A stretch of DNA of 47,901 nucleotides, from IMG/VR virus record IMGVR_UViG_3300023184_000203, positions 1 through 47,901 of that record; one strand, 5' to 3'. The notes beneath the pieces are model-generated. The model was not told where the DNA came from. It searched no databases and worked only from the letters and a program-made list of their open reading frames with translations. Both the position numbers and the translations under genes were made by a program. Shown here piece after piece: positions 14,165 through 38,009 of the stretch; position 1 is the first letter of the stretch; each line of letters opens with the position of its first letter. The DNA comes from a virus.

Positions 14165-14215
14165 TTTGTTTTCCTTTCTTTATCAAGAACCTTTCTTGAT
14201 TTTCTTTATACTATA

Positions 14216-14239
14216 ATCCTAGCAGGGGGGACTGACATT
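14216..14239 (-). promoter_or_regulatory. Early-type promoter P14
   Basis: AAATGTCAG, N10 ending TGC, then TAGGAT, the weakest -10 of the family. A TATAGT lies a few bases further. Confidence 0.55.
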
Positions 14240-14275
14240 TAGGGGTGTTTTTCGGGCGTGTCGCAAAACTATTTA

Positions 14276-14291
14276 TGTGAGTTACAACACA
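14276..14291 (-). promoter_or_regulatory. CRP/GlxR-like dyad between divergent units
   Basis: TGTGA-GTTACA-ACACA, 9 of 10 matches. It sits between leftward P14 and the rightward promoter at 14407. Confidence 0.45.
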
Positions 14292-14406
14292 CTTACGCTC
14301 AACAGTCCAAAGATAATGGGCGCACTATCCAAAATGTCCGTTTTTATACTACCCTGTATCATACATCATAAAAATATATTAACATTTTAAGAAACTTGAT
14401 TTATAG

Positions 14407-14432
14407 TTGACTAAATTGTTAAGTGGTATAAT
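14407..14432 (+). promoter_or_regulatory. Extended -10 promoter of the first oxygenase gene
   Basis: TGGTATAAT (extended -10, TATAAT 14427-14432) with TTGACT 14 bp upstream, inside TAGTTGACTA (14404-14413). ATG follows after 5 nt, so the mRNA is probably leaderless. Confidence 0.65.
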
Positions 14433-14437
14433 TAGCT

Positions 14438-15124
14438 ATGATTAATTTTAGCAAATTTGAAAAAATAAATGATGAGGCCTACATATGGCGGGGATTCCTG
14501 GATTCAGAAACTTGCGATATAGCTTTTCAAGAATCCTCAGAGCAAGATCCAAATACGGTAAATCTTAGGGATTCAGATAAAATAGAACTTCTTAGCGTAT
14601 TTGTAAATGAAAAAATTACAAATGCTGTAAATTTATTTTTTGAAAATACTGAGTATAAGCTTGATAATTTTTTGCATTGGTACACTGCCCCTGGGCTTTG
14701 GTTTAATATACATAGAGACGATGAAGCATATGACCCAAGCCCCAATAAAAAAGTTTGGGCTGGAATAATATATTTATCTAATATGGACGGTGGGCAACTA
14801 TTTTATCCAACAAATAATACTTTGGTTCAACCATTAAAAGGAGATATGGTTATACATACCTCTGCCATACCACATGGTGCAACTCCCGTAAAAGGAGAAA
14901 ATAAAAGAACAATAACCTATGTTGTTTATGATAAAAATAAATTGGCGGATCCAAATGATCCCGAACAAGATTTAAAATATCTTTCCGATTTAAGAGAATT
15001 CCAAGTATTAGAATCAAAAGAATGGCTTAAATCTGATATGGGTATATATTGGGAAAAAATGCAAAATGTAAATTGGGATACTTATATATCTCCCGATAAT
15101 CAATTTTTACCTAAAAGGGCTTGA
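14438..15124 (+). CDS. 2-oxoglutarate/Fe(II) oxygenase, prolyl-4-hydroxylase type, 228 aa
   Basis: Member of the 2OG-Fe(II) oxygenase superfamily, P4H-like group (PF13640): uses O2 and 2-oxoglutarate to hydroxylate a substrate, releasing succinate and CO2. The full metal and cosubstrate set is visible: H92-x-D94 (NIHRDD), distal H146 (PHGATPV) and R157 (KRTITYVV), with the typical core strand IIYLSNMDGGQLFYP and PLKGDMVIH between. Length fits a single-domain enzyme. No Shine-Dalgarno; leaderless from an extended -10. Substrate unknown. First of three such enzymes in the 14.4-18.2 kb module. Confidence 0.85.
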   Translation: MINFSKFEKINDEAYIWRGFLDSETCDIAFQESSEQDPNTVNLRDSDKIELLSVFVNEKITNAVNLFFENTEYKLDNFLHWYTAPGLWFNIHRDDEAYDPSPNKKVWAGIIYLSNMDGGQLFYPTNNTLVQPLKGDMVIHTSAIPHGATPVKGENKRTITYVVYDKNKLADPNDPEQDLKYLSDLREFQVLESKEWLKSDMGIYWEKMQNVNWDTYISPDNQFLPKRA

Positions 15125-15148
15125 CATCGAAAATAGAAATGTTATACT
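15121..15148 (+). promoter_or_regulatory. Strong sigma-70-type promoter of a candidate small RNA
   Basis: Perfect TTGACA (15121-15126, its last bases overlap the oxygenase stop), 16-bp spacer, TATACT (15143-15148). No start codon with ribosome site follows for 190 nt. Confidence 0.75.
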
Positions 15149-15154
15149 GGAAAC

Positions 15155-15320
15155 CTTGGACAGTTTTCGGAGATAATATCAAGGGGTTAAACTCCAAGTG
15201 CGATGATGACGGAAGTTGTAATTCTACAATTACTTTCAGATAATAGCTAGGCCTACTATAGGTTCAACCGATGAATGGCGGATTTATACTCCGATCATTT
15301 CGGGGTTCTCTTTTATTTTT
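15155..15320 (+). ncRNA. Candidate structured small RNA, about 165 nt
   Basis: Bounded by a consensus promoter and an intrinsic terminator, with no convincing frame inside. Possible pairings: CCUUG/CAAGG at the 5' end, a long hairpin GGAAGUUGUA-AUUC-UACAAUUACUUUC (split here as two arms), CCUA-CUA-UAGG, then the terminator stem. GC is higher than in the flanking genes, as expected for a structured RNA. Could be a trans-acting small RNA or a cis-acting leader for the following oxygenase gene. No known family recognised. Confidence 0.6.
15289..15320 (+). terminator. Intrinsic terminator of the small RNA
   Basis: CTCCGA/TCGGGG stem (one G-U, 5-nt loop) followed by TTCTCTTTTATTTTT. Confidence 0.75.
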
Positions 15321-15343
15321 CTTAAAAGGGGTATAGGGGTTGT

Positions 15344-15424
15344 ATGCTTAAATTCTGGAAGTTATTATTAAAATACAAAAGATTAAAAGCTATAAAAAAT
15401 TTTATTAACATTTTTAAATACTGA
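15344..15424 (+). CDS. Possible very short basic peptide, 26 aa
   Basis: MLKFWKLLLKYKRLK then AIKNFINIFKY. Strongly basic and amphipathic. AGGGGT lies 3-8 nt before the ATG and AAAGGGGT further upstream, but the frame is so short and AT-rich that chance is quite possible. Confidence 0.3.
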   Translation: MLKFWKLLLKYKRLKAIKNFINIFKY

Positions 15425-15500
15425 TATTCTAGTCAACTAAAATAATACACATACATAATACTAAATATAGTATAATTGATTTAAATAGAAAGCTGGAAAA

Positions 15501-16478
15501 ATGGAATTAAAAACTATAGACCTTGGTCAAGGAATTTACTTATTCAAAGATGTCTTTAAGGATAAAGTAAAGGCTTATAAATTTATACTTGATTCTAAAA
15601 AAGGAAATGATCCTTATTTCAATAAAGACACTTGGTACGACTGGTCTCCATGGGGCAACTACTCTAAAGCTTATCCAAATTCTACAGATTCAAGTTACCT
15701 AAACTCAACCTCAGAAGGCGCAGATTTATTGCGTGAGGGACTAGAAGTATTTGAATATGTACTCGACTATGTAAAAAATAATTTTACTGACACTACATTT
15801 TTTGAAAGACATAATTTTCCAACTGATTTTCCAACAAGTATAAAACAAATACAAGACAGAGGGCAAATTGGTGATCATAGATTCCAGATGGCTGACTTTG
15901 TAGTATTTGAGACAAATAAAAATGTCGACAAAAACTGGCAAATGTGGATTCATCAAGATACAGTCCCACATTTTGGCGTAACTCAAAACCACATGTTTAA
16001 TTTTAATATCTACGTAAACGATGATTACGAAGGTGGAGAAATTGTATTCTTTAAAGAAGAGGGTATTGAAAAATCTACTTACATAGATAAAGAAACGGGG
16101 AAAGAAAAGCCTGTCTGGTATATTGAAGATCACTTTATTTATAAGATGGAATCTGGAGACGGAATGATTTTCCCAGTAGACCTGTATCATGGCGTAATGC
16201 CAATTGCTGAAGGTGGAGAGAAGTATTACATTAGACAGTTTATTACTCATGTTTCAGATAAAGAATTTGAAGCGGAAAAAATAAAGTTTATTGAATCTGG
16301 ACAAACTGAAGAAGAGTTTGACGAGATGCTTGCCAATATAAGAAAAGAAAGACATGAGAAAAGACTGACTCCAGTTATTTATGACTCAATTGAAAGCATT
16401 CCTTCAAATGTACAAAATGGAGATGTTCAAGTTGCATGTATTATTAAATCTCGCAAAGATATTTCTTCATTAATATAA
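15501..16478 (+). CDS. 2-oxoglutarate/Fe(II) oxygenase, prolyl-4-hydroxylase type, 325 aa
   Basis: P4H-like 2OG-Fe(II) oxygenase with the facial triad H151-x-D153 (WIHQDT) and H230 (YHGVMPI), and K241/R245 (GEKYYIRQF) for 2-oxoglutarate. The core strand NIYVNDDYEGGEIVFF is typical. A 30-residue insertion (EGIEKSTYIDKETGKEKPVW) sits between the strands, and about 65 extra residues after the core form a charged helical tail. Ribosome site GAAAGCTGG; TATAAT at 15471-15476 upstream with TAGTCAACTA at 15430-15439. The next gene starts directly at its stop (TAATG), so it is cotranscribed with the sulfotransferase. Confidence 0.85.
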   Translation: MELKTIDLGQGIYLFKDVFKDKVKAYKFILDSKKGNDPYFNKDTWYDWSPWGNYSKAYPNSTDSSYLNSTSEGADLLREGLEVFEYVLDYVKNNFTDTTFFERHNFPTDFPTSIKQIQDRGQIGDHRFQMADFVVFETNKNVDKNWQMWIHQDTVPHFGVTQNHMFNFNIYVNDDYEGGEIVFFKEEGIEKSTYIDKETGKEKPVWYIEDHFIYKMESGDGMIFPVDLYHGVMPIAEGGEKYYIRQFITHVSDKEFEAEKIKFIESGQTEEEFDEMLANIRKERHEKRLTPVIYDSIESIPSNVQNGDVQVACIIKSRKDISSLI

Positions 16479-17302
16479 TGAACAGTTATAAGAATTTTTA
16501 TTTTTTACATATTCCTAAAACAGGTGGAAGATATGTAAAAGCATATATTCTTAGTCAACTAAAAGATACTTTAAACATACTTCCAATTACCGATAGGCAC
16601 GAAGGCTGGGTAGAAGTAAATGATGACACATATATTTTTTCAATATTAAGAGATCCAGTAGAATTTGCATGTAGCTTATACGCACATGAAGTAATGCAAA
16701 AAGCTAAATTAATGGAAAATGTTTTAATAAACAGTAAAGAGTATCTCAATAGAAATATTTCTAATGTATATCTTGATAAAAAGTATTTAATTGCATATTA
16801 CATGGCAAATCCATGGGCTAAAAACTTACAGAGTAAACATATTCTAAATAGTAGAACCGATAGCAAAAGAATTACAGATGTAATAATTCATAGATATACA
16901 TTTACTGATGAAATTGATAAAGATCTACTATATAAAAGACTAAATAGAATAAATTTGCTAGTTAGACAGTCTAGCCTGTATAAACCAGAATCTATTGCTA
17001 AAAAATTATGTAATGATCTAGATATTAAAATGGCGGGGGATATCGAAGAAGACAATCTAATATTCCACAATATAGCATCATCTAATCTATATAATAGTTT
17101 AACTCAAGAAGATAAAGACTGGCTAGAAGAATTCTTTTCATTAGACGTAGAGATATACAATAACCATAGTATTTTTAGTCAACTAGATAATGTATGCTCA
17201 TTCTGTGGAGACTATGCATATACTACTGAGTTTGATACAACTTGGAAAAAATACTCATTTTGCGTAGAATGCATAAAGTCTAAAGAAACTCTCCTTGGCT
17301 GA
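16478..17302 (+). CDS. Sulfotransferase-like protein with C-terminal zinc ribbon, 274 aa
   Basis: Looks like a PAPS-dependent sulfotransferase: HIPKTGGRYV (11-20) matches the 5'-phosphosulfate loop of the HIPKTGG type, and SILRDPVEFACSLY (55-68, with R58 and S66) matches the 3'-phosphate motif RDPxxxxxSxY. Such enzymes move a sulfuryl group from PAPS to a hydroxyl or amine of glycans, lipids or tyrosine. The C-terminus adds C240-x2-C243 ... C262-x2-C265, a zinc ribbon not usual for the family. No signal peptide, so action would be cytosolic. Starts on the stop of a hydroxylase gene, which suggests a linked job: a hydroxyl group made by one could be sulfated by the other (inference). Confidence 0.75.
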   Translation: MNSYKNFYFLHIPKTGGRYVKAYILSQLKDTLNILPITDRHEGWVEVNDDTYIFSILRDPVEFACSLYAHEVMQKAKLMENVLINSKEYLNRNISNVYLDKKYLIAYYMANPWAKNLQSKHILNSRTDSKRITDVIIHRYTFTDEIDKDLLYKRLNRINLLVRQSSLYKPESIAKKLCNDLDIKMAGDIEEDNLIFHNIASSNLYNSLTQEDKDWLEEFFSLDVEIYNNHSIFSQLDNVCSFCGDYAYTTEFDTTWKKYSFCVECIKSKETLLG

Positions 17303-17501
17303 TTTAAGACACGAACTTCATCTTCTTGGCCCAGATGCCCAGGATATACTTAAAAAGTATTTAGAGGGCAAGCTAGGCCTGTGTTTGAATGCTTCTGCAA
17401 ATGATGGCATATGCGATATAACATGGAAGCATGAGGACTGTAGTATAATTATGGATATGTTATATGACCTTACATCCAACGAGATGTATATAGGCAAATG
17501 A
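17295..17501 (+). CDS. Hypothetical protein, 68 aa, TTG start
   Basis: Not recognised. ADLRHELHLLGPDAQDILKKYL helix, then GLCLNASANDGICDITWKHEDCSIIMDMLY with three Cys. The TTG start overlaps the sulfotransferase stop by 8 nt; no better start is visible. Coupled translation would explain the weak start codon. Confidence 0.55.
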   Translation: MADLRHELHLLGPDAQDILKKYLEGKLGLCLNASANDGICDITWKHEDCSIIMDMLYDLTSNEMYIGK

Positions 17502-17552
17502 GGGTCTCTATTTTCCGCCGCACTTTTTTCGCACTTAAATTAGGAGTAAATT

Positions 17553-18152
17553 ATGTTCTATGATGATCCAGATATATCTAAACTAAGAGAAGAAGGAGTT
17601 TGGGTAGGAAAGGGTTTTGTTTCTCAAGAAGACTGTGATTCAATAGTCCGCCATGTTGAAAACTTTTCAGATGAGGATTGGCTAGACGGATGGGCTAGAC
17701 ATCAAGGTACATTATTTTATACAAATGAGCCTGAATCAGAAAAGCTTATTGCAGAATGGTGGAGCGATAAGGTTAGCCCTCCAGTTCTTCTTCCAGCAGT
17801 AAATAAAATTAACGCAAAACTAAAATATTTGTTTACCCCAGAGCTTATTTTCTTGCCAGAATATAAAATTGTAAGACTTAGGCCAGGACAAAATATGAAA
17901 TCCCACAGAGACAACAGAATGGAAGACAACAACCTTCAGCCAGACGTAAAACAAGAATTTACAATTAAATGTGCTTATACAGTTTATTTAAGTAACTTTA
18001 AGGGTGGAGAAATAAATTATCCAGAATTAGAATACACCCACGTGCCTGTGCCAGGAGATATTGTAATACATTCTGGCAGAGTCCTGCATGAAGTTTTTGA
18101 TGTAACCGAAAACAACAGGTATACAATAACTGGATGGCTATTAGGTAAATAG
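17553..18152 (+). CDS. 2-oxoglutarate/Fe(II) oxygenase, prolyl-4-hydroxylase type, 199 aa
   Basis: P4H-like oxygenase with H118-x-D120 (KSHRDN), distal H179 (RVLHEVFDV) and R189 (NRYTITGW). Core strands TVYLSNFKGGEINYP and PVPGDIVIHSG are clear. The N-terminus (LREEGVWVGKGFVSQEDCDSIVRHV) has the helix that starts many P4H domains. Good ribosome site AGGAG. Closest in plan to the first oxygenase of this module (HRD triad), different from the HSD/HAD types of the 33-38 kb cluster. Confidence 0.85.
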   Translation: MFYDDPDISKLREEGVWVGKGFVSQEDCDSIVRHVENFSDEDWLDGWARHQGTLFYTNEPESEKLIAEWWSDKVSPPVLLPAVNKINAKLKYLFTPELIFLPEYKIVRLRPGQNMKSHRDNRMEDNNLQPDVKQEFTIKCAYTVYLSNFKGGEINYPELEYTHVPVPGDIVIHSGRVLHEVFDVTENNRYTITGWLLGK

Positions 18153-18153
18153 A

Positions 18154-18188
18154 CCCCATACAAAGGCGGATTCGTATGAGGCCTATTT
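18154..18188 (+). terminator. Hairpin terminator after the third oxygenase
   Basis: CCCCATAC/GTATGAGG stem (one mismatch, 12-nt loop containing AAAGGCGG) followed by CCTATTTT. A second small stem GCAC-CTTA-GTGC follows. The rest of the gap to 18259 shows nothing else. Confidence 0.5.
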
Positions 18189-18259
18189 TGCACCTTAGTG
18201 CATACAAGGAGACATAATCTCAACTTGTAATATTATTATAAAGTAATTAAAATCTTAAG

Positions 18260-18421
18260 TCAATGGTTTCTAAAAAATAGTTTTTTCTTAATTCTATAAA
18301 TGGCATTACTAAATTTTTCTTCAATTTTGCGTTCAATTATTCCCTCTTTGCTTTCATATTTGTAGTGATCAGTATGAAAATAAGGGCTTTGCATCATTTT
18401 GGAAAAATGTCTTGGGCTCAT
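18260..18421 (-). CDS. Small basic hypothetical protein, 53 aa
   Basis: MSPRHFSKMMQSPYFHTDHYKY ... IIERKIEEKFSNAIYRIKKKLFFRNH in parts: a basic amphipathic C-terminal helix. The ATG lies 7 nt after TATAAT (18429-18434, overlapping the stop of the next gene upstream), so it may be a separate leaderless transcript. Function unknown. Confidence 0.55.
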   Translation of the reverse strand: MSPRHFSKMMQSPYFHTDHYKYESKEGIIERKIEEKFSNAIYRIKKKLFFRNH

Positions 18422-18429
18422 GTATATAA

Positions 18430-18624
18430 TTATACATCATTATCAGACCTAAAGGCTGGAGCTGGGCCAAGCAAAAATCCATCTTCATGATACTTAACCA
18501 TTTTTTCTACATCTTCTTTCCCCACGCTTCCTTTAGCTATAAGGGTAAGCATATCGTAGATTCTGTGAAGCATGATGTAGTTAACCATTTCTAGGTTATC
18601 TTCTAGATTATTACTTTCTGTCAC
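18430..18624 (-). CDS. Hypothetical protein, 64 aa
   Basis: Helical acidic protein (NNLEDNLEMVNYIMLHRIYDML, KGSVGKEDVEKMVKYHEDG). Similar in layout to small phage proteins encoded next to lysis genes, with nothing diagnostic. Overlaps the upstream gene by 14 nt. Confidence 0.65.
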   Translation of the reverse strand: MTESNNLEDNLEMVNYIMLHRIYDMLTLIAKGSVGKEDVEKMVKYHEDGFLLGPAPAFRSDNDV

Positions 18625-18799
18625 TTGTGTATTTTTCTAATTCTAATGATAAATCTTCAAGGCTTTTGCCTGTTTCAATTGCTCCATCTATATATAGCTT
18701 AAATTCTTTAAGCGCTTTAATTGCCATTGGCAAAACTTGCATGTGCATGCAAGGGATACCCATGCCAACAGCTCTAAGTAAATCTTTATCGTATGGCAT
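18611..18799 (-). CDS. Hypothetical protein, 62 aa
   Basis: LLRAVGMGIPCMHMQVLPMAIKALKEFKLYIDG then an acidic helix. A Met/Cys/His cluster (C-M-H-M) is unusual. Overlaps both neighbours by 14 nt. Function unknown. Confidence 0.6.
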   Translation of the reverse strand: MPYDKDLLRAVGMGIPCMHMQVLPMAIKALKEFKLYIDGAIETGKSLEDLSLELEKYTSDRK

Positions 18800-18998
18800 T
18801 ATCTACTTGCTCCTTTAGCTTATCGTAAAAATGTAATCCTATGTGTTTTTTGTATCCACAAGATAGGCAATATAAAAAAATTCCATCTTCTTCGTCAAGG
18901 TTAGACAAAAGAGAGCCTTGATCCATTGGACAGTATATCCGTGGAACAAGGCCCTCTTCTGACAAGGATATGTATTTAGATACGTATTGTATCTTCAT
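18786..18998 (-). CDS. Small zinc-ribbon-like protein, 70 aa
   Basis: RIYCPMDQGSLL ... FLYCLSCGYKKHIGLHFYD: one Cys, then C-x2-C about 20 residues later, with His residues near; plausible zinc ribbon. Lies 9 nt after the lysozyme-like gene. Function unknown. Confidence 0.65.
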   Translation of the reverse strand: MKIQYVSKYISLSEEGLVPRIYCPMDQGSLLSNLDEEDGIFLYCLSCGYKKHIGLHFYDKLKEQVDNAIR

Positions 18999-19007
18999 AC
19001 TTCCCCC

Positions 19008-19556
19008 TTAATTATTTGGAAATTTTAAATAAAATTCCTTGGCTCTTGGGGTCATTCCCTTCCAAGCCGACCAATCAATACCGCCATTGGTCATGTAGTA
19101 CGTTATCTCTGCGTTAGTTACTGGGTCGAATAACTCTTTGTTACTCTTTAGGTCAAATTTCTCTAGCCTTGTTGGGCCAAGATCTCCGATCATATTGATC
19201 TGGAAAATTCCGTAGGAACTATCTCCAGTTTTCTTATCCCCGTTATATGCAAGCGGTCTTCCATTAGATTCCCGCTTTGCTATTGACCAAGCTTTCTTAA
19301 GGCCTGCTCCTTCGAATCCTACAGTCTTGAGTAGTAAAACTAGATCTTCGTCTGTAAGCATTTCAGATGGTTTGTAAATTTCTTTACTAAAACTATCTAA
19401 AACTTCTTGCTTTAGTTGGGCTTCAGTTTTCACTAAAGGTTGTACATTTACAGTAAGTGCGTTAGCTGGGTTTCCAGAAAATAAAAACAATGTTACCATT
19501 GTAATTATTGTCCAGTCACGAATTAAATCGCTTAACTGTTGTTTTATATTCTCCAT
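19008..19556 (-). CDS. Membrane-anchored lysozyme/transglycosylase (lysis enzyme), 182 aa
   Basis: Peptidoglycan-degrading enzyme of the lysozyme-like superfamily. Residues about 16-34 (IITMVTLFLFSGNPANALT) form a signal peptide or membrane anchor, so it acts outside the membrane on the cell wall. The catalytic domain follows: AWSIAKRESNGRPLAYN with the likely catalytic Glu (E96), then GDSSYGIFQINMIGDLGPTR, the SYGIFQIN block typical of lytic transglycosylase and phage lysozyme folds, and GGIDWSAW near the end. AGGAGG lies only 2 nt before a first ATG (19562) but 8 nt before the second (19556), so the latter is chosen. Opens a leftward cassette with its own promoter. Could serve as endolysin with a SAR-like or Sec-type export. 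Confidence 0.8.
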   Translation of the reverse strand: MENIKQQLSDLIRDWTIITMVTLFLFSGNPANALTVNVQPLVKTEAQLKQEVLDSFSKEIYKPSEMLTDEDLVLLLKTVGFEGAGLKKAWSIAKRESNGRPLAYNGDKKTGDSSYGIFQINMIGDLGPTRLEKFDLKSNKELFDPVTNAEITYYMTNGGIDWSAWKGMTPRAKEFYLKFPNN

Positions 19557-19589
19557 TGGCATTTCCTCCTATAGAGATAACGAACTATA

Positions 19590-19619
19590 AGAATAGCATT
19601 ACTGTCTAATAGATGTCAA
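19590..19619 (-). promoter_or_regulatory. Sigma-70-type promoter of the lysis cassette
   Basis: Minus strand TTGACA (19614-19619), 18-bp spacer, TATTCT (19590-19595). CAGTCAACTA, close to the recurring 10-mer TAGTCAACTA, lies immediately upstream (19622-19631). Confidence 0.6.
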
Positions 19620-19677
19620 GTCAGTCAACTAAAACCTATCTCACATAATGATACGCTTAATAAATATTTTTTGCCAC

Positions 19678-19706
19678 TAGACCTATGATCGAAAGTTTGA
19701 TACACT
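19678..19706 (+). promoter_or_regulatory. Possible promoter of the ribonucleotide reductase gene
   Basis: TAGACC, 17-bp spacer, TACACT. Modest match. The leader after it can form CCGC-AAG-GCGG next to GGAGAAAAGG; no cobalamin riboswitch pattern is visible. Confidence 0.35.
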
Positions 19707-19757
19707 AGGACCTCATCTAAAAATTACACCGCAAGGCGGAGAAAAGGTTATATATAA

Positions 19758-21692
19758 ATGTCACAAACTATTGAAAACCCTTATGAAAACTTTATTGCTT
19801 TATCTAGATATGCAAAATGGGTGGAAGCAGAAGGACGCAGAGAAACTTGGGGAGAGACAGTAGATAGATATTTTAATTTTATGCTTAACCAATTAAGTGT
19901 AAATCATAATTATATTCCAAATGAAAAGCTTGTTGCGGAATTAAAAGAGTTTGTATTTGAAAGAAATGTAATGCCATCTATGAGATCTGTAATGACTTCA
20001 GGTCCCGCACTAGAAAGAGATAACGTTGCGGGATATAACTGTGCTTTTTTACCAGTTGATTCACCTCGCTCATTTGACGAAACTATGTATGTTTTAATGT
20101 GTGGTACAGGAGTAGGATTTTCTGTTGAGTATAAATACATTAACAAGCTGCCTGCTGTACCAGAATCTTTAGAAAAATCAACTACCGTGATTACGGTTGA
20201 AGATTCAAAGCAAGGGTGGGCAAAAGCATATCGAGAGTTACTTGCCCTTCTTTGGTCTGGACAGATTCCAGCAATTGATGTTTCTAAGGTAAGACCCGCA
20301 GGAGCAAGGCTTAAGACAATGGGAGGCAGATCATCAGGGCCGCAACCACTTGTTAATCTTTTTGACTTTACGATTGCAAAATTTAAAAACGCCACAGGAA
20401 GAAATTTAAAACCAATTGAATGTCACGATATTATGTGCAAGATTGGTGAAATTGTTGTTGTAGGAGGAGTTCGTAGATCAGCAATGATTTCGCTTTCTAA
20501 TATAAATGATATTGAAATGGCACAGGCTAAATCAGGCAATTGGTGGGAAGCAAGTCCACAACGTGCTTTGTCTAATAATTCAGTTGCGTATTCACGCAAA
20601 CCAGGAATGGAACAGTTTATTGCAGAATGGAAATCTTTATATGATTCAAAGTCAGGAGAACGAGGCATATACAATGTGGCCGCAGCTCAAGCCCAAGCAG
20701 CAAGATTTGGCAGAAGAGATCCAGATATACACTACGGAACTAACCCTTGTTCAGAAATTATTTTACGTCCTTATCAGTTTTGTAATCTTTCAGAAGTCGT
20801 ATTACGTGAAAACGATACAAAAAAAGATATTGAGCGTAAGGTAGAGCTTGCAACAATACTTGGAACATGGCAATCTACTCTTACTGAATTTAAATATCTT
20901 CGCAAAATCTGGAAAGACAATACAGAAGAAGAACGCCTACTAGGAGTTTCTTTAACTGGACAGTTTGGGCACAAATTTATGTCTGGCAAAGAAGATCTTG
21001 TTTCCTTAGAAGCATTTTTAATGACGCTTAGAGAATTAGCAAGAGCAAAAAATAAAGAGGAGTCTGGGAAAATTGGGATTCCCGAGTCAGCTGCTATTAC
21101 ATGCGTAAAGCCCTCTGGAACAGTGTCTCAATTGGTCGGGGTATCTTCAGGAATGCATCCATGGCATTCACCATATTATGTTCGTACGGTTCGTGGCTCA
21201 AAAGGTGATCCAATATCTACGTTTTTAAAAGAAGTTGGCATTCCAGTACAAGACGATGTAATGAAACCAAATGAAACTTATGTATTTTCTTTTCCAATAA
21301 AGGCACCCGAAGGCGCAATAGTTAGAAATGATTTGACAGCCATTGACCATTTAAATATTTGGTTGGTGTATCAACGTGCATGGTGTGAACATAAGCCCTC
21401 CATTACCGTATCTGTCAAAGAAGATGAATGGATGGACGTTGGTGCGTGGGTATATAAGAATTTTGATGAAGTCTCTGGAATTTCATTTTTACCACATTCA
21501 GAGCACACATACAAGCAGGCCCCCTATCAAGAAATTTCTAAAGAAGAATATGAAGACCTTCTTGCCAAAATGCCTAACGATATTCGCTGGGAAGATTTAT
21601 CGTTTTATGAAACAGAAGATGGAACTTCCCCCTCTTCTACGCTTGCATGCAGCTCCGATGGGAATTGTGAGCTTGTGGATATTTCTGCTTAG
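19758..21692 (+). CDS. nrdJ: Class II (adenosylcobalamin-dependent) ribonucleoside-triphosphate reductase, 644 aa
   Basis: Makes deoxynucleotides from ribonucleoside triphosphates with a B12-derived radical, needing no oxygen or second subunit. It fits the monomeric RTPR type of Lactobacillus leichmannii. Key Cys are all present and correctly spaced: C95 (AGYNCAFLP), thiyl-radical C331 with E333 in NPCSEI, and C342 (FCNLSE) 11 residues later, matching C119, C408, E410 and C419 of that enzyme. GGVRRSAMISL and the ESAAITCVKPSGTVSQL block also fit. The C-terminal C631 and C637 form the swinging redox pair. At 644 aa it is about 95 shorter than the Lactobacillus enzyme, as usual for phage forms. 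No thioredoxin gene is adjacent, so reduction depends on the host. Confidence 0.95.
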   Translation: MSQTIENPYENFIALSRYAKWVEAEGRRETWGETVDRYFNFMLNQLSVNHNYIPNEKLVAELKEFVFERNVMPSMRSVMTSGPALERDNVAGYNCAFLPVDSPRSFDETMYVLMCGTGVGFSVEYKYINKLPAVPESLEKSTTVITVEDSKQGWAKAYRELLALLWSGQIPAIDVSKVRPAGARLKTMGGRSSGPQPLVNLFDFTIAKFKNATGRNLKPIECHDIMCKIGEIVVVGGVRRSAMISLSNINDIEMAQAKSGNWWEASPQRALSNNSVAYSRKPGMEQFIAEWKSLYDSKSGERGIYNVAAAQAQAARFGRRDPDIHYGTNPCSEIILRPYQFCNLSEVVLRENDTKKDIERKVELATILGTWQSTLTEFKYLRKIWKDNTEEERLLGVSLTGQFGHKFMSGKEDLVSLEAFLMTLRELARAKNKEESGKIGIPESAAITCVKPSGTVSQLVGVSSGMHPWHSPYYVRTVRGSKGDPISTFLKEVGIPVQDDVMKPNETYVFSFPIKAPEGAIVRNDLTAIDHLNIWLVYQRAWCEHKPSITVSVKEDEWMDVGAWVYKNFDEVSGISFLPHSEHTYKQAPYQEISKEEYEDLLAKMPNDIRWEDLSFYETEDGTSPSSTLACSSDGNCELVDISA

Positions 21693-30465: not shown

Positions 30466-31899
30466 ATGAAAAATATTGGAGTTAATTCATCCGCACAAGA
30501 TAACTTTACTGGCCCAAATGCGCCAGTCTCGTTAACTGCCACAAACACGCCCTCTGGTAGAAGTTACAACGATGGTCGCATAGACCTTAGTTGGTCGGCT
30601 TCAACAGGAGCTAATATCCCAACGGGTTACTATGTAATATATAACGGATCAACAATTGCAACGGTTGCTTATCCAACAACAAGCTATAGCGTAACTGGTT
30701 TGTCATCAAACACATCATACAGCTACACAGTAAAAGCTTACGATGCCTACAACACAAGCGTTGATTCCCCTTCAGCATCTGTAACTGCTACAACAGTACC
30801 AGCTACAATGTCGGCGCCAAGTGCAACAGCAGGTGTAGACTCGGATAGCGTATCGTTTACAGCGCCAGCCACGGGTGGATCTGCAATTACTACATATAGA
30901 TGGACATCTTCAGATGGTAAAACTGGAACAACTGCTTCATCACCATTTTCAGTTGTTCAAGAAGCAAATACCGCTCAAACTTATCAAATAAGAGCAGAAA
31001 ATGCTAATGGTTCTGGAGTTTATTCTGGTAACTCTAATTCAGTTACTACACTGCCACCAGGGTTCTTTGGCCCACCATCTTTCTTTTCCCCACCAGGGTT
31101 CTTTGCCCCACCAGGGTTCTTTTCCCCACCAGGGTTCTTTGCCCCACCATCGTTCTTTTCCCCACCAGGGTTCTTTTCCCCACCAGGGTTCTTTTCCCCA
31201 CCATCGTTCTTTTCCCCACCAGGGTTCTTTTCCCCACCAGGGTTCTTTTCCCCACCAGGGTTCTTTGCCCCACCAGGGTTCTTTTCCCCACCAGGGTTCT
31301 TTGCCCCACCAGGGTTCTTTTCCCCACCAGGGTTCTTCGGACCTCCTAGTTTTGCAAAATCAGTCGGAGTTAATACTTTAGTGAGAACACCATCAGGATT
31401 AGTTTCAGCTGGACAACTTGAAATTGGAGACGAAATAATTGGTTTAAATATACCAGGAATTCCAGACAATTACTGGCTGTTAGACGACGGTAGTATGGGA
31501 TCGTATTCAGATTATGTTATAACTCAAGAGCAGATTGATAATGCAACAGAAACAGTTACAACTGTAGTTGGTAAAAGACTACATGAAAATATTGGAGCAG
31601 TTGCTGTAAATGGAGACATTTACACATTAAATCACTTTATTCTTGCTAAAAGAGATAATGAAATTAAATCAATAAACGTAAGATTTTTATTAAATACTGA
31701 TTTCATTTATAATCATCAAACACAAGATTTTGTACCTGTTGAAGCATATGAAAAAAATGAAGAAATTACAATTCAATCTTATTCTATAAACACAGAACCA
31801 TTTGACTTTTACTTTACAGAAAATGGTTTAACATTTGATATGCAGGCATTGGCTGAAGACCTCTCTGGTCTAAGCAGCGATACACCAACCCAACCTTAA
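30466..31899 (+). CDS. Tail protein with FN3-like domains, PPG hexapeptide repeats and Hint-like C-terminus, 477 aa
   Basis: Three parts. Residues about 15-196: two FN3/Ig-like beta domains (VSLTATNTPSG ... LSWSASTGANIPTGYYVIYNG; SAPSATAGVDSDSVSFTAPATGG). Residues 199-294: sixteen tandem hexapeptides [GS]FF[SAG]PP, thirteen starting with Gly, giving repeated Pro-Pro-Gly. Residues about 297-477: a domain resembling Hint (hedgehog/intein) modules, with SVGVNTLVRTPSGLVSAGQL then EIGDEIIG as block A (Ser at the usual Cys position), YTLNHFILA as the His block, and IQSYSINTEPFDFYFTENGLTF near the end; no terminal Asn, so classic splicing is unlikely. It ends the fibre operon and directly precedes the oxygenase cluster. 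The PPG repeats are good candidate substrates of prolyl hydroxylases (inference). Confidence 0.75.
   Translation: MKNIGVNSSAQDNFTGPNAPVSLTATNTPSGRSYNDGRIDLSWSASTGANIPTGYYVIYNGSTIATVAYPTTSYSVTGLSSNTSYSYTVKAYDAYNTSVDSPSASVTATTVPATMSAPSATAGVDSDSVSFTAPATGGSAITTYRWTSSDGKTGTTASSPFSVVQEANTAQTYQIRAENANGSGVYSGNSNSVTTLPPGFFGPPSFFSPPGFFAPPGFFSPPGFFAPPSFFSPPGFFSPPGFFSPPSFFSPPGFFSPPGFFSPPGFFAPPGFFSPPGFFAPPGFFSPPGFFGPPSFAKSVGVNTLVRTPSGLVSAGQLEIGDEIIGLNIPGIPDNYWLLDDGSMGSYSDYVITQEQIDNATETVTTVVGKRLHENIGAVAVNGDIYTLNHFILAKRDNEIKSINVRFLLNTDFIYNHQTQDFVPVEAYEKNEEITIQSYSINTEPFDFYFTENGLTFDMQALAEDLSGLSSDTPTQP
31060..31347 (+). repeat. Sixteen 18-bp tandem repeats encoding [GS]FF[SAG]PP
   Basis: Unit close to GGGTTCTTTTCCCCACCA. 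Variants replace GGG by TCG or TCT (Ser) at repeats 2, 6 and 9, and change the fourth codon between TCC, GCC, GGC and GGA. Copy number could change by slippage in 6-residue steps without frameshift. Confidence 0.95.
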
Positions 31900-33044: not shown

Positions 33045-33743
33045 ATGTTAGAAAATGCAGAATACCTAGCAACTGGTATAGTTGTGTATAGAAATGTTTT
33101 CAATACAGATAAAGCCTATATTCAAAGACTAGAAGATACGTTAGGGTCTAAAGAAAATACAAAGTACAGCTGGAAGCCAGGATATACAGGGTATGGTTCA
33201 AAAAATCTAAATTACAGAGACTGTGTAGATTTTAAGATTAAGCATAATGCAGATGGATCCCTTTCGGCACACATGGACAATATTAGCAAAGAAGATCAAG
33301 ACGGTACGGATAAAGAATTGGTTAGAATTTGGGAAGACGCATATTATGCACAACTTCCAGCGGTAGATGATTATAGAGCAATGTTTAATCTTGCCCCACT
33401 TGAATATTGGGAATCTTTTAATTTTATTAAGTACGGGCCAGGCCAACATTTTCAAATTCATTCAGATCATGGATATTCCTATACATGTGTATTATCATTA
33501 GTGGGTTATTTAAATGATGACTACGAAGGCGGAGAACTTCATTTTGATAAGTTAGGCTTAACCATTAAACCAAAAGCAGGGGATCTTTATTTATTCCCAT
33601 CATCATATGTGTATTCACATGCAGCCATGCCAGTTACATCAGGAACAAAGTATTCAGTTGTAACAATGCTTGATTATTTAGAAACAGCGCATACCCCAGA
33701 TTATAGAAATCTAGAGGCAAAATATTCAAAGAGCTTGTTGTAA
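33045..33743 (+). CDS. 2-oxoglutarate/Fe(II) oxygenase, prolyl-4-hydroxylase type, 232 aa
   Basis: P4H-like enzyme: H139-S-D141 (FQIHSDHG), distal H192 (YSHAAMPV) and K202 (GTKYSVV) as the 2-oxoglutarate-binding base. Core strands LVGYLNDDYEGGELHF and IKPKAGDLYLFPS are very typical. Lys rather than Arg at the end fits several P4H-type enzymes. Preceded by a short gap with AAGAGA as ribosome site and TACAAT/TATACT -10-like sequences, so it may have its own promoter. First of five complete oxygenases in 33-38 kb. Confidence 0.9.
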   Translation: MLENAEYLATGIVVYRNVFNTDKAYIQRLEDTLGSKENTKYSWKPGYTGYGSKNLNYRDCVDFKIKHNADGSLSAHMDNISKEDQDGTDKELVRIWEDAYYAQLPAVDDYRAMFNLAPLEYWESFNFIKYGPGQHFQIHSDHGYSYTCVLSLVGYLNDDYEGGELHFDKLGLTIKPKAGDLYLFPSSYVYSHAAMPVTSGTKYSVVTMLDYLETAHTPDYRNLEAKYSKSLL

Positions 33744-34441
33744 TGTATTCAATAGATGCATTTAGAACTACAGGGCTATCAAATATTTCTCAATCTCCAG
33801 TAAAAAGAGATTGGATGGATGATACCTATGATAGACATGCATATAACTGCTTCCCAGTCACGATAACTAATTCATTAGGATGGAGTATATCTTTCCCAGA
33901 AGAAATTTCATTTGTTTGGGATGGAATTTCAGACTCATCTTCACACCATGTAAAGGTCTTGTCGGGAGAAAAGTATGTTTCTACTGGAAGAGCCAACGGA
34001 ACAATTAGTTTCAATACTGGGATAGGATTTAAAACAGACTCTAATTTAAGCCTATTATGTATGCCCACTCCAAATTTATTTATTAGGGGAGTGCAATCTT
34101 TTACCACATTAATTAGCACATCTTTTTTTCACGGAGATTTCCCAATAGCCTGGAAAATTACTGAGCCTATGGTAAAAATTACAATACCAGCAAACACACC
34201 AATTGCAAATATACTTCCTATATCATTGTCAGAATTACAGAATTCAGAAATAAAGTTTGCTCCGTTAAGCGAAAGGCCATCAACCGATTGCAGCGGGGAA
34301 GTCACAATGAAAAAAGTTAATGAAATAACAAAATCTGGAGGTTGGACAAATTTTTATAGAGATTCTATTGATGCATGCGGCAACTCTTTGGGTGATCACG
34401 AAGTTAAATCTATAAGGTTAAGCGTAGTAGAAAATGCCTAA
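33743..34441 (+). CDS. DUF6065-like protein, 232 aa
   Basis: Resembles the DUF6065 family, found in cyanophage-like genomes next to 2OG oxygenases; function unknown. Seen: DRHAYNCFPVTITNSLGWSI near the N-terminus, FVWDG, a central FKTDSNLSLLCMPTPN, and WKITEPMVKITIPANTPIANILPISL. Beta-rich, probably a jelly-roll. Start sits on the stop of the oxygenase (TAATG), so the pair is coupled. May share ancestry with the next gene. Confidence 0.6.
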   Translation: MYSIDAFRTTGLSNISQSPVKRDWMDDTYDRHAYNCFPVTITNSLGWSISFPEEISFVWDGISDSSSHHVKVLSGEKYVSTGRANGTISFNTGIGFKTDSNLSLLCMPTPNLFIRGVQSFTTLISTSFFHGDFPIAWKITEPMVKITIPANTPIANILPISLSELQNSEIKFAPLSERPSTDCSGEVTMKKVNEITKSGGWTNFYRDSIDACGNSLGDHEVKSIRLSVVENA

Positions 34442-35138
34442 AATAACTTTTCATTCTAATAGATTTTACAATAATAAAAATTCAGACTTAAACCCCGAGC
34501 CAGCTAAAAAAAGTATGCCGCAGTGGTTTGTAGATTCTAGTAGGTATTGGTTTCCAGAAGATTCTAGCTCGTTATCATTTAAAGCTTGTCCAGCTCTGAT
34601 AGATGCTTTTTTAACTGGATATGTGTTAAAAACACCATGTGACATATATATTGCTAAAGGAGTAGATGCAGAAGGAAAAGAGCAAGTAGCTGCAATGACT
34701 CAACACGGGTATGAAGATTTTTGTGGACATAGACCAGATATGGTTGGATTTCCAAAACCTATAGGAACAAATAAACATTTTCACTGGTACCCTAATTGGA
34801 TGCCTGGGCTAGAAGACGGGTATAGCGCTATTTATGTTCATCCGCTAAATAGATATGACCTTCCATTTGTTACGGTTTCTGGTATAATTGATAACGATAA
34901 GATGGACACTCCAGGGCTTATGCCATTTTTTTTAAAAGATGGTTTTGAAGGACTTATTCCTAAAGGTACTCCATACGCACAAGTGATTCCATTTAAAAGA
35001 GAAGACTGGACCTCAGAAGAAAAAATGTATACCCAAGAAGAAATTTTAGAAAGACACAACTTTCAAGCAAATAAATTTAGAGTGCCAGAGGGCGGGGCAT
35101 ACAAGAAAAAGGTATGGTCAAGAAAGAGGTATGATTAA
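34434..35138 (+). CDS. DUF6065-like protein, second copy type, 234 aa
   Basis: Same general plan as its neighbour: PQWFVDSSRYWFPEDSSS, FKACPALIDAFLTGYVLKTPCDIYI, YVHPLNRYDLPFVTVSGIIDND, and GFEGLIPKGTPYAQVIPFKREDW. The CPALIDAF...GYVLKTPCDI and IPKGTPYAQVIPF blocks are the counterparts of CFPVTI... and IPANTPIANILPI in the neighbour, so the two are likely distant paralogues. Function unknown. Overlaps both neighbours. Confidence 0.6.
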   Translation: MPKITFHSNRFYNNKNSDLNPEPAKKSMPQWFVDSSRYWFPEDSSSLSFKACPALIDAFLTGYVLKTPCDIYIAKGVDAEGKEQVAAMTQHGYEDFCGHRPDMVGFPKPIGTNKHFHWYPNWMPGLEDGYSAIYVHPLNRYDLPFVTVSGIIDNDKMDTPGLMPFFLKDGFEGLIPKGTPYAQVIPFKREDWTSEEKMYTQEEILERHNFQANKFRVPEGGAYKKKVWSRKRYD

Positions 35139-35851
35139 TGATTACTGATAAATGGGACACATCTAATAATGTTGCAAATTTTAATTCTCCCTCAATTACC
35201 CCTTCAGGATTTTTTGGAGATTCAGATAAAAATATAGTAGAAGTAGAAAATGCAATTACAGAAGAAGAACAGACTGTGTTGTTAGCATTCGCCAGAAATA
35301 ATAATTCATTTGACGATATCCCCACAGAGTTTAATGAAAATGGGACTCTTATCTATGACGAAAGGCCGTGGGCAAATAGAGTAATTACTGGAGAAGAATT
35401 AGTAAAAAATGGCCACAACGAAATTATTGAAATTGTGACTAATATTATAAATAGATTTAAACTTGTAATAGAAAGCTTTTTTGAAGTTAAGGCAACTCCA
35501 ACGGGGCCAGCAATTGTTAGGTGGCCAGTAGGGGCAAGGCAAGAGCCACACGCAGACAAAGAGCTCCACGAGGGCCCAGACTCAGGAACACCCAATTCCT
35601 TTCCCTGGTATGACCTAGGGACAGTTTTTTATCTTAATGATGACTACACTGGGGGAGAGTTATATTTTCCAAAACAGGGCGTAGAGTTTAAGCCAAAACC
35701 AAGAGCGGGTTATTTTTTCCCAGGTGATATGAATTATATTCATGGGGTTAGGCCTATATCAGAAGGCTGCCGATACACATTACCATATTTCTGGACTATA
35801 TATGAATTACCAGAAAAATTTAGCGGACCAAAGGATTTTAAAAATGACTAG
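35138..35851 (+). CDS. 2-oxoglutarate/Fe(II) oxygenase, prolyl-4-hydroxylase type, 237 aa
   Basis: Complete triad: H138-A-D140 (EPHADK), distal H202 (YIHGVRPI), R212 (CRYTLPYFW). Core FYLNDDYTGGELYFP and KPKPRAGYFFPGD. The N-terminal third is a helical cap with AITEEEQTVLLAFARN. Begins on the stop of the DUF6065-like gene and overlaps the next oxygenase by 8 nt. Insert GPDSGTPNSFPW before the core strand is a likely substrate-facing loop. Confidence 0.9.
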   Translation: MITDKWDTSNNVANFNSPSITPSGFFGDSDKNIVEVENAITEEEQTVLLAFARNNNSFDDIPTEFNENGTLIYDERPWANRVITGEELVKNGHNEIIEIVTNIINRFKLVIESFFEVKATPTGPAIVRWPVGARQEPHADKELHEGPDSGTPNSFPWYDLGTVFYLNDDYTGGELYFPKQGVEFKPKPRAGYFFPGDMNYIHGVRPISEGCRYTLPYFWTIYELPEKFSGPKDFKND

Positions 35852-36566
35852 CTATGTGACAATGCATAAAGATCAATGCTTTACAGTAGATAATTTTTTA
35901 TCTGAATTTGAATGTAAAGCAATAATTGCCTATTTAGATTTTTTGGTGGTCAATAAAATACTAGAGTGGAATCAGATATCATTCTATGACTCATTTGCAA
36001 TGGGATTTTGGCCCTACGATCCAAATCTAGAAATGTTTGGATTGCCCTCTAATTACTTTAACGATATTTTGAAAAAAAGAATACAGGATATATCAGAAAA
36101 TGTTTTATCAGTTAGTCTTGCGGAAGTAAGCTATCACGCACAAAAATGGGATGACGGAGCATATGCATCATTTCATTCTGATAATTCGGATGAACATGGT
36201 AACCCAACAGAATTTGTAAGAAGTAAATTTGCGGTATTTATATATTTAAACGATAATTTTGAAGGAGGGTATCTAAACTTTAAAAATCATGATGTAAATA
36301 TAAAACCAGCCGTAGGCAGAGCAGCTATATTTGCTGGGGGACACAACAATGAACACGAAGTAACAAAAGTTCATGGCGGAACAAGATACACTATAGGTTC
36401 GTTTTGGGATTTAGCAGATTGCGTATACTCTGAAGAAGAATTACAGGAAAGAGAAGAAAGACTTAAAAAGACCAGGGCGGACCAGGACATGACCTACAAG
36501 CAATGGGAAGATGAAAAAAAGCTTGGCATCACGCAAGACTATATTGGAAAGTACGGAGAAAAATGA
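35844..36566 (+). CDS. 2-oxoglutarate/Fe(II) oxygenase, prolyl-4-hydroxylase type, 240 aa
   Basis: H111-S-D113 (SFHSDNSDEHGN), distal H171 (NNEHEVTKV), R181 (TRYTIGSFWD). Core VFIYLNDNFEGGYLNF and IKPAVGRAAIFAGG. The open frame extends upstream inside the previous gene, but the ATG at 35844 (MTSYVTMHKDQCFTVDNFLSE) matches the usual start of the family and overlaps the previous stop by 8 nt. Ends with a charged helical tail of about 50 residues. Confidence 0.9.
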   Translation: MTSYVTMHKDQCFTVDNFLSEFECKAIIAYLDFLVVNKILEWNQISFYDSFAMGFWPYDPNLEMFGLPSNYFNDILKKRIQDISENVLSVSLAEVSYHAQKWDDGAYASFHSDNSDEHGNPTEFVRSKFAVFIYLNDNFEGGYLNFKNHDVNIKPAVGRAAIFAGGHNNEHEVTKVHGGTRYTIGSFWDLADCVYSEEELQEREERLKKTRADQDMTYKQWEDEKKLGITQDYIGKYGEK

Positions 36567-37417
36567 AAAAGATAGAAATTTATCCAAAAGTTATTGTTTA
36601 TAAAAATATGCTTCCAAGATGGAAGGAATATGTTGAGCTTTTAAAAGAATCTGAAAAAAGAAGCCCTGAACATTTATTTAAAGAGTGGCAGGATTGGTAT
36701 GGATTTGGCGGCATGATGAATCTTTCAATGAATAGACCAGAAACTGAATATGCCATAGATAGCAATGATAGATATGCTTTATTGCAAAAAGACTTTTTGA
36801 CAGATGTAACAAATGCATATTATCAATGCACAGAAGACTATGTTATGACAAATGAAATATCTTTACCAAATTGGGTAAATAACGGAATTTCAATTTGCAA
36901 GTATTGGGAAACTCAAAAAGACAATACAATGGCAATGCACTATCATACAGATTACAGAGGGTTTGACTATGAGTCACCAGGTAAAAAATATGCCATAACC
37001 TGTACAATTTACATTAATGACGATTATGATGGAGGCGGACTATCATTTTTAAGAGAAGACACTGGAGATGTTATTGATTATAAGCCAGAGGCTGGCGACA
37101 TTGTTGTATTCCCATCAGGAGATCCAGTAACTGGGGGCTCTCATTATTTTCATGGAGTTGATAGAGTTGATAATGGAGAAAAATATTTTATAAGATGCTT
37201 TTGGTCATATGATTTCCCAGGGACAGAAGAATGGCATGCCAATAAAGCAAAACACGGGGAAGACTGGGACAAGATTGATTCGGAAAGAATGAAAAAGGAG
37301 ATACATTCTGGCAAGTGGCACAAATACCTGGTTAAACCTGGACAAGAAGATCCAAAGCTAGAAAAATCAAGTCCATTTTTTATGAAAGATGAAGATGCAT
37401 ATAAAAAAATTAGATGA
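36563..37417 (+). CDS. 2-oxoglutarate/Fe(II) oxygenase, prolyl-4-hydroxylase type, 284 aa
   Basis: H128-T-D130 (MHYHTDYRG), distal H197 (YFHGVDRV), K207 and R211 (EKYFIRCFW). Core CTIYINDDYDGGGLSFL and KPEAGDIVVFPSGDP. Closest in layout to the 325-aa enzyme at 15.5 kb (long N-terminus, YHGV/FHGV, K-Y-F/Y-I-R), so those two may share a substrate type. ATGA overlap with the upstream gene. Confidence 0.9.
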   Translation: MKKIEIYPKVIVYKNMLPRWKEYVELLKESEKRSPEHLFKEWQDWYGFGGMMNLSMNRPETEYAIDSNDRYALLQKDFLTDVTNAYYQCTEDYVMTNEISLPNWVNNGISICKYWETQKDNTMAMHYHTDYRGFDYESPGKKYAITCTIYINDDYDGGGLSFLREDTGDVIDYKPEAGDIVVFPSGDPVTGGSHYFHGVDRVDNGEKYFIRCFWSYDFPGTEEWHANKAKHGEDWDKIDSERMKKEIHSGKWHKYLVKPGQEDPKLEKSSPFFMKDEDAYKKIR

Positions 37418-38009
37418 TAATATAATATATTACACGGGGGTAATCCCAGACCCAAATGGTTTTGTAAATCAAATTGAAAGCCTAGATCTGTCTAATGATA
37501 ATACTACACAAATTTCAAAATGGAAAACATGGACAGCCAGCGACCATGATGTAGAATATGGTTTATCAAAAGATGGAATGTTTTCTAATATGCAATACTA
37601 CACGGATGAAGATTTAGACACATCCATGATGGTGTATCAAATTAAATTAATATCTGATTTATGTTTTGCAAACTATTCACATATTACTGGTGCACCTCGT
37701 TTAAAGCTACCAGATTATTTTAGCATCAGGAAATATAACTCTCTTGCAGATATGGGACAGCATGTAGACGCAGAAGATCCAACCGACAAAGCCCACCCAG
37801 TTGTTTCAGGAGTTTTGTATTTAAATGATAATTACGAGGGTGGAGAAATATATTTTCCAGAACAAGATATTAAAATAAAACCAGAAGCTGGTAGCTTAGT
37901 TATGTTTCCTTCGTATAGGCCATACTTCCATCATCCATTGCCAGTAACTTCTGGCAGTAAGTACATGGTTCCATTTTTTTGGTTTGATATAGAAACTAAT
38001 TGGGGGTAA
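37389..38009 (+). CDS. 2-oxoglutarate/Fe(II) oxygenase, prolyl-4-hydroxylase type, 206 aa
   Basis: H125-V-D127 (MGQHVDAED), distal H181/H182 (YFHHPLPV), K191 (SKYMVPFFW). Core GVLYLNDNYEGGEIYFP and IKPEAGSLVMFPS. Two ATGs (37389 and 37395) are possible, both overlapping the upstream gene by more than 20 nt, so it is translationally coupled. A single-domain enzyme, the smallest complete one of the cluster. Confidence 0.9.
   Translation: MKMHIKKLDDNIIYYTGVIPDPNGFVNQIESLDLSNDNTTQISKWKTWTASDHDVEYGLSKDGMFSNMQYYTDEDLDTSMMVYQIKLISDLCFANYSHITGAPRLKLPDYFSIRKYNSLADMGQHVDAEDPTDKAHPVVSGVLYLNDNYEGGEIYFPEQDIKIKPEAGSLVMFPSYRPYFHHPLPVTSGSKYMVPFFWFDIETNWG

Follow-up and report, generated by a model that had tools for sequence, protein, structure and literature searches.

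The question raised by this locus is why a phage should carry a sulfotransferase at all. Phage sulfotransferases are known but unexplained: aquatic phage genomes (OM43 phages and cyanophages) carry them together with 2OG-Fe(II) oxygenases, and the authors leave their function open (PMC10580990). The DNA analysed here (the window) makes up an entire virus record of 47,901 bases, probably a fragment, in which a gene belonging to a large conserved family found in tail-gene cassettes lies among oxygenase genes. The portal, protease, and capsid genes of the window match those of Streptomyces and Rhodococcus phages at ~65% nucleotide identity, which makes an actinobacterial host likely. The features of the locus are these:

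14438-15124, plus strand: further upstream 2OG-Fe(II) oxygenase, a looser member of the neighbourhood, 228 aa (PF13640 32.4 bits, cut-off 27)
15501-16478, plus strand: ox15501, upstream 2OG-Fe(II) oxygenase, 325 aa (PF13640 32.9 bits, cut-off 27)
16478-17302, plus strand: sulfotransferase gene, 274 aa (core residues 1-237 plus a C-terminal extension)
16508-16528, plus strand: 5'-phosphosulfate-binding motif HIPKTGG, residues 11-17, invariant in a 25-member alignment
16598-16609, plus strand: HEGW, residues 41-44, with H41 the candidate catalytic base; H41 and W44 invariant; aligns with HADW of HS6ST3 (5t03)
16649-16681, plus strand: 3'-phosphate-binding motif RDPVEFACSLY, residues 58-68; R58, P60, and S66 invariant
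17183-17299, plus strand: four-Cys C-terminal module, residues 236-274, predicted to be treble-clef-like; in the window and L126-L130 only
17295-17501, plus strand: small ORF with a TTG start, 68 aa, overlapping the sulfotransferase stop in the +1 frame; homologue in L126-L130
17553-18152, plus strand: ox17553, downstream 2OG-Fe(II) oxygenase, 199 aa (PF13640 36.8 bits, cut-off 27)

An earlier reading, made from the letters alone, had called this gene a PAPS-dependent sulfotransferase, and that identity is now backed by its motifs and family, by the predicted fold, and by a histidine of catalytic type in the alignment. The open reading frame is exact and its motifs lie where they were claimed, with HIPKTGG at residues 11-17 and R58-D-P-VEFAC-S66-L-Y68 present. 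Across the 25-member alignment H11-I-P-K-T-G-G17, H41, W44, R58, P60, S66, and Q118 are invariant, including the lysine of the 5'-phosphosulfate-binding loop (K14, 25/25 members) and the arginine and serine of the 3'-phosphate-binding motif; HIRKTGG stands in place of HIPKTGG in L127-L130 and L218. A profile alignment sets H41-E-G-W44 opposite HADW, and the C-terminal DxEIY block opposite LDMQLY, of HS 6-O-sulfotransferase (5t03). The HADW histidine is presumably the catalytic base of HS6ST.

The sequence-only reading had named a predicted fold of another type as one thing that would refute it, and the fold predicted for the protein (AlphaFold2, pLDDT 79.6) is of the sulfotransferase type: the best solved match found by Foldseek is HS 6-O-sulfotransferase with PAP (5t03, E=5.4e-4, prob 1.00), the best solved matches after it are all sulfotransferases, SULT-type small-molecule ones among them, and viral matches, down to E=1.8e-7, are mostly named sulfotransferases. 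The order of elements (5'-PSB, HxxW histidine, 3'-PB, C-terminal LDxxxY helix) is that of HS6ST3 (5t03), but identity between the two is ~15%, the TM-score is 0.48 by query length, and the eukaryotic disulfide-rich insertions of HS6ST3 are absent from the window's enzyme. A search of sulfotransferase profiles, proposed as a check of the same reading, gave a divided answer. PHROG_3347, labelled 'Galactose-3-O-sulfotransferase', was matched at 1e-6 over residues 2-91, and by 18 of 25 family members, but that match is partial and covers the PAPS-binding half only, and the galactose label is an annotation and not a test. No Pfam model was reached at its cut-off, and there was no meaningful Pfam or NCBIfam family match; Sulfotransfer_2 (PF03567) was not matched by the window's protein and only weakly by 2 of 25 relatives (best E 0.0018). 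The window's enzyme would work like a Sulfotransfer_2 (PF03567) enzyme yet is not filed as a member. The sulfotransferases of the OM43 phages and cyanophages were typed as Sulfotransfer_3 (PF13469), and the available part of their report describes neither a zinc-finger tail nor a PAPS-supply gene (PMC10580990).

Sulfotransferases had also been held to be uncommon in phages, a view that the counts overturn. At least 119 IMG/VR viral contigs match a single 26-base motif, of which 58 encode a detectable relative, and a profile scan found the family encoded in at least 107 IMG/VR contigs (80 kept), with homology across these spanning the core, about residues 1-235. In viral_contigs and genome_contigs, scans with a single sequence had given no relative because their seed peptides lay outside the conserved motifs; the family emerged once a motif pattern and an alignment were used. 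No relative of the window's sulfotransferase was found by tblastn in 50,697 named phage records, and a cellular source was not visible in genome_contigs, which gave five partial matches only. The core is under purifying selection (dN/dS 0.22-0.27), and the gene diverges faster than the genes that flank it, as expected if the acceptor changes quickly; recombinational replacement would look alike. A chance motif in a junk ORF is ruled out by family, selection, and fold, and on sequence and model together assignment to the PAPS-type sulfotransferase class is well supported.

The C-terminal extension is, by sequence comparison, a clade-specific addition. Homology with most family members ends at residue 233-237, and only in L126-L130 (59-63% identical) does the match run through residue 274; the next relatives, L218 and L131, lack the tail, so that a four-Cys tail as a general feature of the family is ruled out in favour of one confined to the window's own clade. 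Its cysteines (C240-x2-C243-x18-C262-x2-C265) are all invariant in three diverged lineages, and dN/dS of 0.34-0.62 over this short stretch indicates moderate constraint. Modelled alone (pLDDT 74, best of five models), the tail forms a hairpin and then a helix, and the placing of the two CxxC pairs around the hairpin, with the second at the helix start, is the treble-clef order in sequence and model. Foldseek gave ribosomal L24e/Rlp24-type proteins as best matches for the tail, none significant (best E 0.2), and the best Pfam match (0.023) was below cut-off. What had been read as an added zinc ribbon is thus an added four-Cys module, but its predicted shape is that of a treble-clef-like zinc finger. 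We know of no zinc-finger tail in PHROG_3347.

The tail and the small ORF that overlaps the sulfotransferase stop are more likely of separate origins than one split or +1-frameshifted gene, because in L218 the small ORF stands alone with its own ATG (87 aa) and there is no four-Cys tail. The small ORF at 17295-17501 is a probable gene. In L218 the sulfotransferase and the small ORF are separated by a tRNA-Ile (anticodon TAT, L218:4517-4592), possibly an insertion hot spot. The DNA at 17295-17550, which comprises the small ORF and the leader of ox17553, differs at silent sites by ~0.09-0.13, set against a sulfotransferase dS of about 1 or more, and relatives also have TTCCGCCGCAC ahead of ox17553; such conservation could reflect an RNA element, a regulatory site, or recombination in the recent past. 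An Rfam scan of 14200-20000 gave one sub-threshold match only.

Where PAPS might come from is suggested by a second gene. Among 30 records searched, at least 28 of which bear a sulfotransferase, 12 encode a fusion of ~252 aa, labelled simply kinase in PHROG_10255. Its N-terminal half is APS-kinase-like (PF01583, 61.5 bits, cut-off 21.1, at positions 3-91 of 152 only) and its C-terminal half, an HxGH nucleotidyltransferase, is closest to NMNAT. The APS-kinase half and the HxGH nucleotidyltransferase half are points of likeness to PAPS synthetase and CysC, but only 91 of 152 model positions are matched, and the domain order and second domain differ from those of CysN/CysC and ATP sulfurylase. 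None of the controls has the fusion; these are 24 contigs, fragments of one lineage, that carry a close portal gene but gave no sulfotransferase match. Conversely, when 26 contigs were selected by the fusion alone, 8 proved to encode a sulfotransferase of the window's or a related family, several within a few kb. Three carriers, G003 (L218), G005 (L163), and G007 (L185), belong to the window's lineage and approach complete genomes in size; the fusion and the sulfotransferase are widely separated in G003 and G005. Viruses commonly encode the fusion, including some named phages in which no relative of the window's sulfotransferase was found. In the window, itself a fragment, no APS-kinase-like gene was seen and no glycosyltransferase lies beside the enzyme. 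By its sequence, the fusion is a possible PAPS supply in relatives.

Gene order gives the family its company. L185, of the window's lineage, has in succession a Sulfotransfer_2 gene, a Gly_transf_sug glycosyltransferase, the family sulfotransferase, the fusion, and tail-type genes, with 3 bases between sulfotransferase and fusion and with several genes overlapping. In L187 and L189-L192 the sulfotransferase gene lies among fibre-like, DUF6065-type, and oxygenase genes. Three observations on the gene content of such contigs may be recorded here. A tryptophan-halogenase (PF04820, 1.6e-108) lies at L391:2404-3927, on a viral contig, near sulfotransferase and APS-kinase-like genes. Judged by their N-termini, the proteins at L393:535-2079, L389:5411-6958, and L392:2625-4163 are similar tryptophan-halogenases, in the same kind of neighbourhood on viral contigs. 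At L389:9530-10768, on a 123-kb viral contig, a 412-aa protein matches the RuBisCO large chain (PF00016, 3.4e-42) and adjoins the fusion region.

Considering the observed family, motifs, predicted fold, selection, and cassette company, the gene product is probably a PAPS-dependent O-sulfotransferase of the HS-sulfotransferase-like kind, with a carbohydrate as the most likely acceptor, acting in a tail-gene tailoring cassette. Polysaccharide sulfotransferases work with a PSB lysine, a PB serine, and a histidine or glutamate base (PMC11625862). By homology, Lys14 of HIPKTGG and the Arg58/Ser66 pair would hold PAPS while His41 would deprotonate the acceptor hydroxyl, and the sulfuryl group would be moved in line. 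As acceptor, a carbohydrate on virion fibres would be likelier than a small metabolite, given that the family recurs in tail-gene cassettes and lies once beside a DXD glycosyltransferase. The host would provide PAPS, with the APS-kinase-like fusion adding to the supply in some relatives; neighbouring 2OG oxygenases may be optional partners that create or modify attachment sites; and the four-Cys tail, the weakest step, may be a small zinc finger that anchors the enzyme or sets its position. The question of why phages carry sulfotransferases thereby becomes a concrete test of virion sulfate and of phage-made PAPS. If this reading is true, sulfate would join the tags on phage surfaces as a new kind, bearing on host recognition, and phages would be a source of glycan sulfotransferases. 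What is new is how widely the family occurs, a tail confined to one clade, and the repeated co-occurrence with a fusion that may make PAPS; no description of this combination was found in the open-licence literature. A fuller version, in which oxygenases with or without a glycosyltransferase prepare sites on the fibre proteins or glycans of the phage itself, the sulfotransferase sulfates them, the fusion raises PAPS while the host is infected, and the zinc finger of the window's clade docks the enzyme on its substrate, we advance tentatively and with more doubt than confidence.

The neighbouring oxygenases invite another account, already proposed from the sequence, in which the adjacent 2OG oxygenase hydroxylates a Pro, Lys, or Asp side chain and the sulfotransferase sulfates the new hydroxyl. 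The physical link is close: as had been claimed, the gene starts on the stop of the upstream oxygenase, its ATG sharing an A with the TAA (TAATG, 16476-16480, a 1-base overlap). Both flanking genes exceed the PF13640 (2OG-FeII_Oxy_3) cut-off and carry an HxD...H facial triad. Wherever a related contig has enough sequence upstream, ox17553 is next to the sulfotransferase; that the gene is followed by another oxygenase is correct in so far as ox17553 is one, but a 68-codon ORF lies between. An ox15501-seeded scan returned seven close relatives, of which six (L183, L184, and L200-L203, but not L199) adjoin sulfotransferases; in these six the ox15501-type gene lies behind tandem sulfotransferases of the window's family, in the same genome slot before lysozyme-like and nrdJ genes, with gene order reversed relative to the window. 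Some of these contigs are near-identical, so independent cases number about three or four. Elsewhere, L392 has an oxygenase that shares a 4-base overlap with a different sulfotransferase, and another phage group has operons of Sulfotransfer_2, Asp/Asn beta-hydroxylase (PF05118), and the fusion, mostly with 4-base overlaps.

Against this, no ox15501 lies upstream of the sulfotransferase in the close relatives L126, L128, L130, L131, and L163; in L128 and L130 a JmjC/cupin-like protein, just under the Pfam cut-off, lies ~0.3 kb upstream instead. Nor is there family-wide enrichment: of 36 family clusters, 21 offered 3 kb or more of context, and a 2OG gene was detected within 3 kb at 10 of these 21 loci, compared with 8.2 +/- 1.9 for random ORFs from the same loci, by a model that misses PF05118 and JmjC types. 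Likewise, in a set of 42 contigs with diverse FLHIPKTGG sulfotransferases, 29 lack a PF13640 gene and only 3 have PF05118. Adjacency is also less striking because the window has eight 2OG oxygenases (one, at 35138, just under cut-off), and G005 has nine PF13640 places; moreover, the structural neighbours of the sulfotransferase act on sugars. The hydroxylase coupling stands as a linkage within the window's lineage (an oxygenase of some kind beside the gene in much of it, ox17553 conserved, ox15501-type genes recurring) and not as a general law, and direct sulfation of a newly made hydroxyl is an unlikely reading of it. In L200 (6958-7453) a sulfotransferase beside an intact ox15501-type oxygenase appears to be split into two overlapping frames, by decay or assembly error.

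A third account places the acceptor on the host, where a cell-surface glycan or lipid would be sulfated during infection, for example to mask receptors from superinfecting phages. Carbohydrate-type structural neighbours are consistent with it, as are the glycosyltransferase and a capsule-synthesis-like match beside the gene in L185, and divergence faster than the flanks is that of host-facing functions. However, the gene's neighbours in the lineage are tail and lysis genes, which would be late functions and not early takeover, and we consider a host-surface target doubtful. A small-molecule or nucleotide acceptor, or a role in host sulfur (auxiliary) metabolism, is suggested by the SULT-type enzymes among the structural matches and by the partly NMNAT-like fusion but is very improbable, since polysaccharide is the substrate of the top structural matches, no PAPS reductase was seen in 30 related records, and the cassette lies among tail genes.

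Further along the window, two features touch on oxygenases and fibres. A fn3-containing tail-type protein (30466-31899) carries 13 PPGFF (16 PP[G/S]FF) repeats and a C-terminal segment that by eye resembles a Hint/intein domain, and its relatives have PPGFF or FFPPFFPP repeats. PPG is a classic prolyl-hydroxylase site, and because the gene lies just upstream of a block of five oxygenases, the protein is a candidate oxygenase substrate. In that block (33045-38009), five 2OG-Fe(II) oxygenase genes are interleaved with genes for a DUF6065 protein and a phrog_7084 protein, and the cassette is conserved beside fibre genes in many related contigs.
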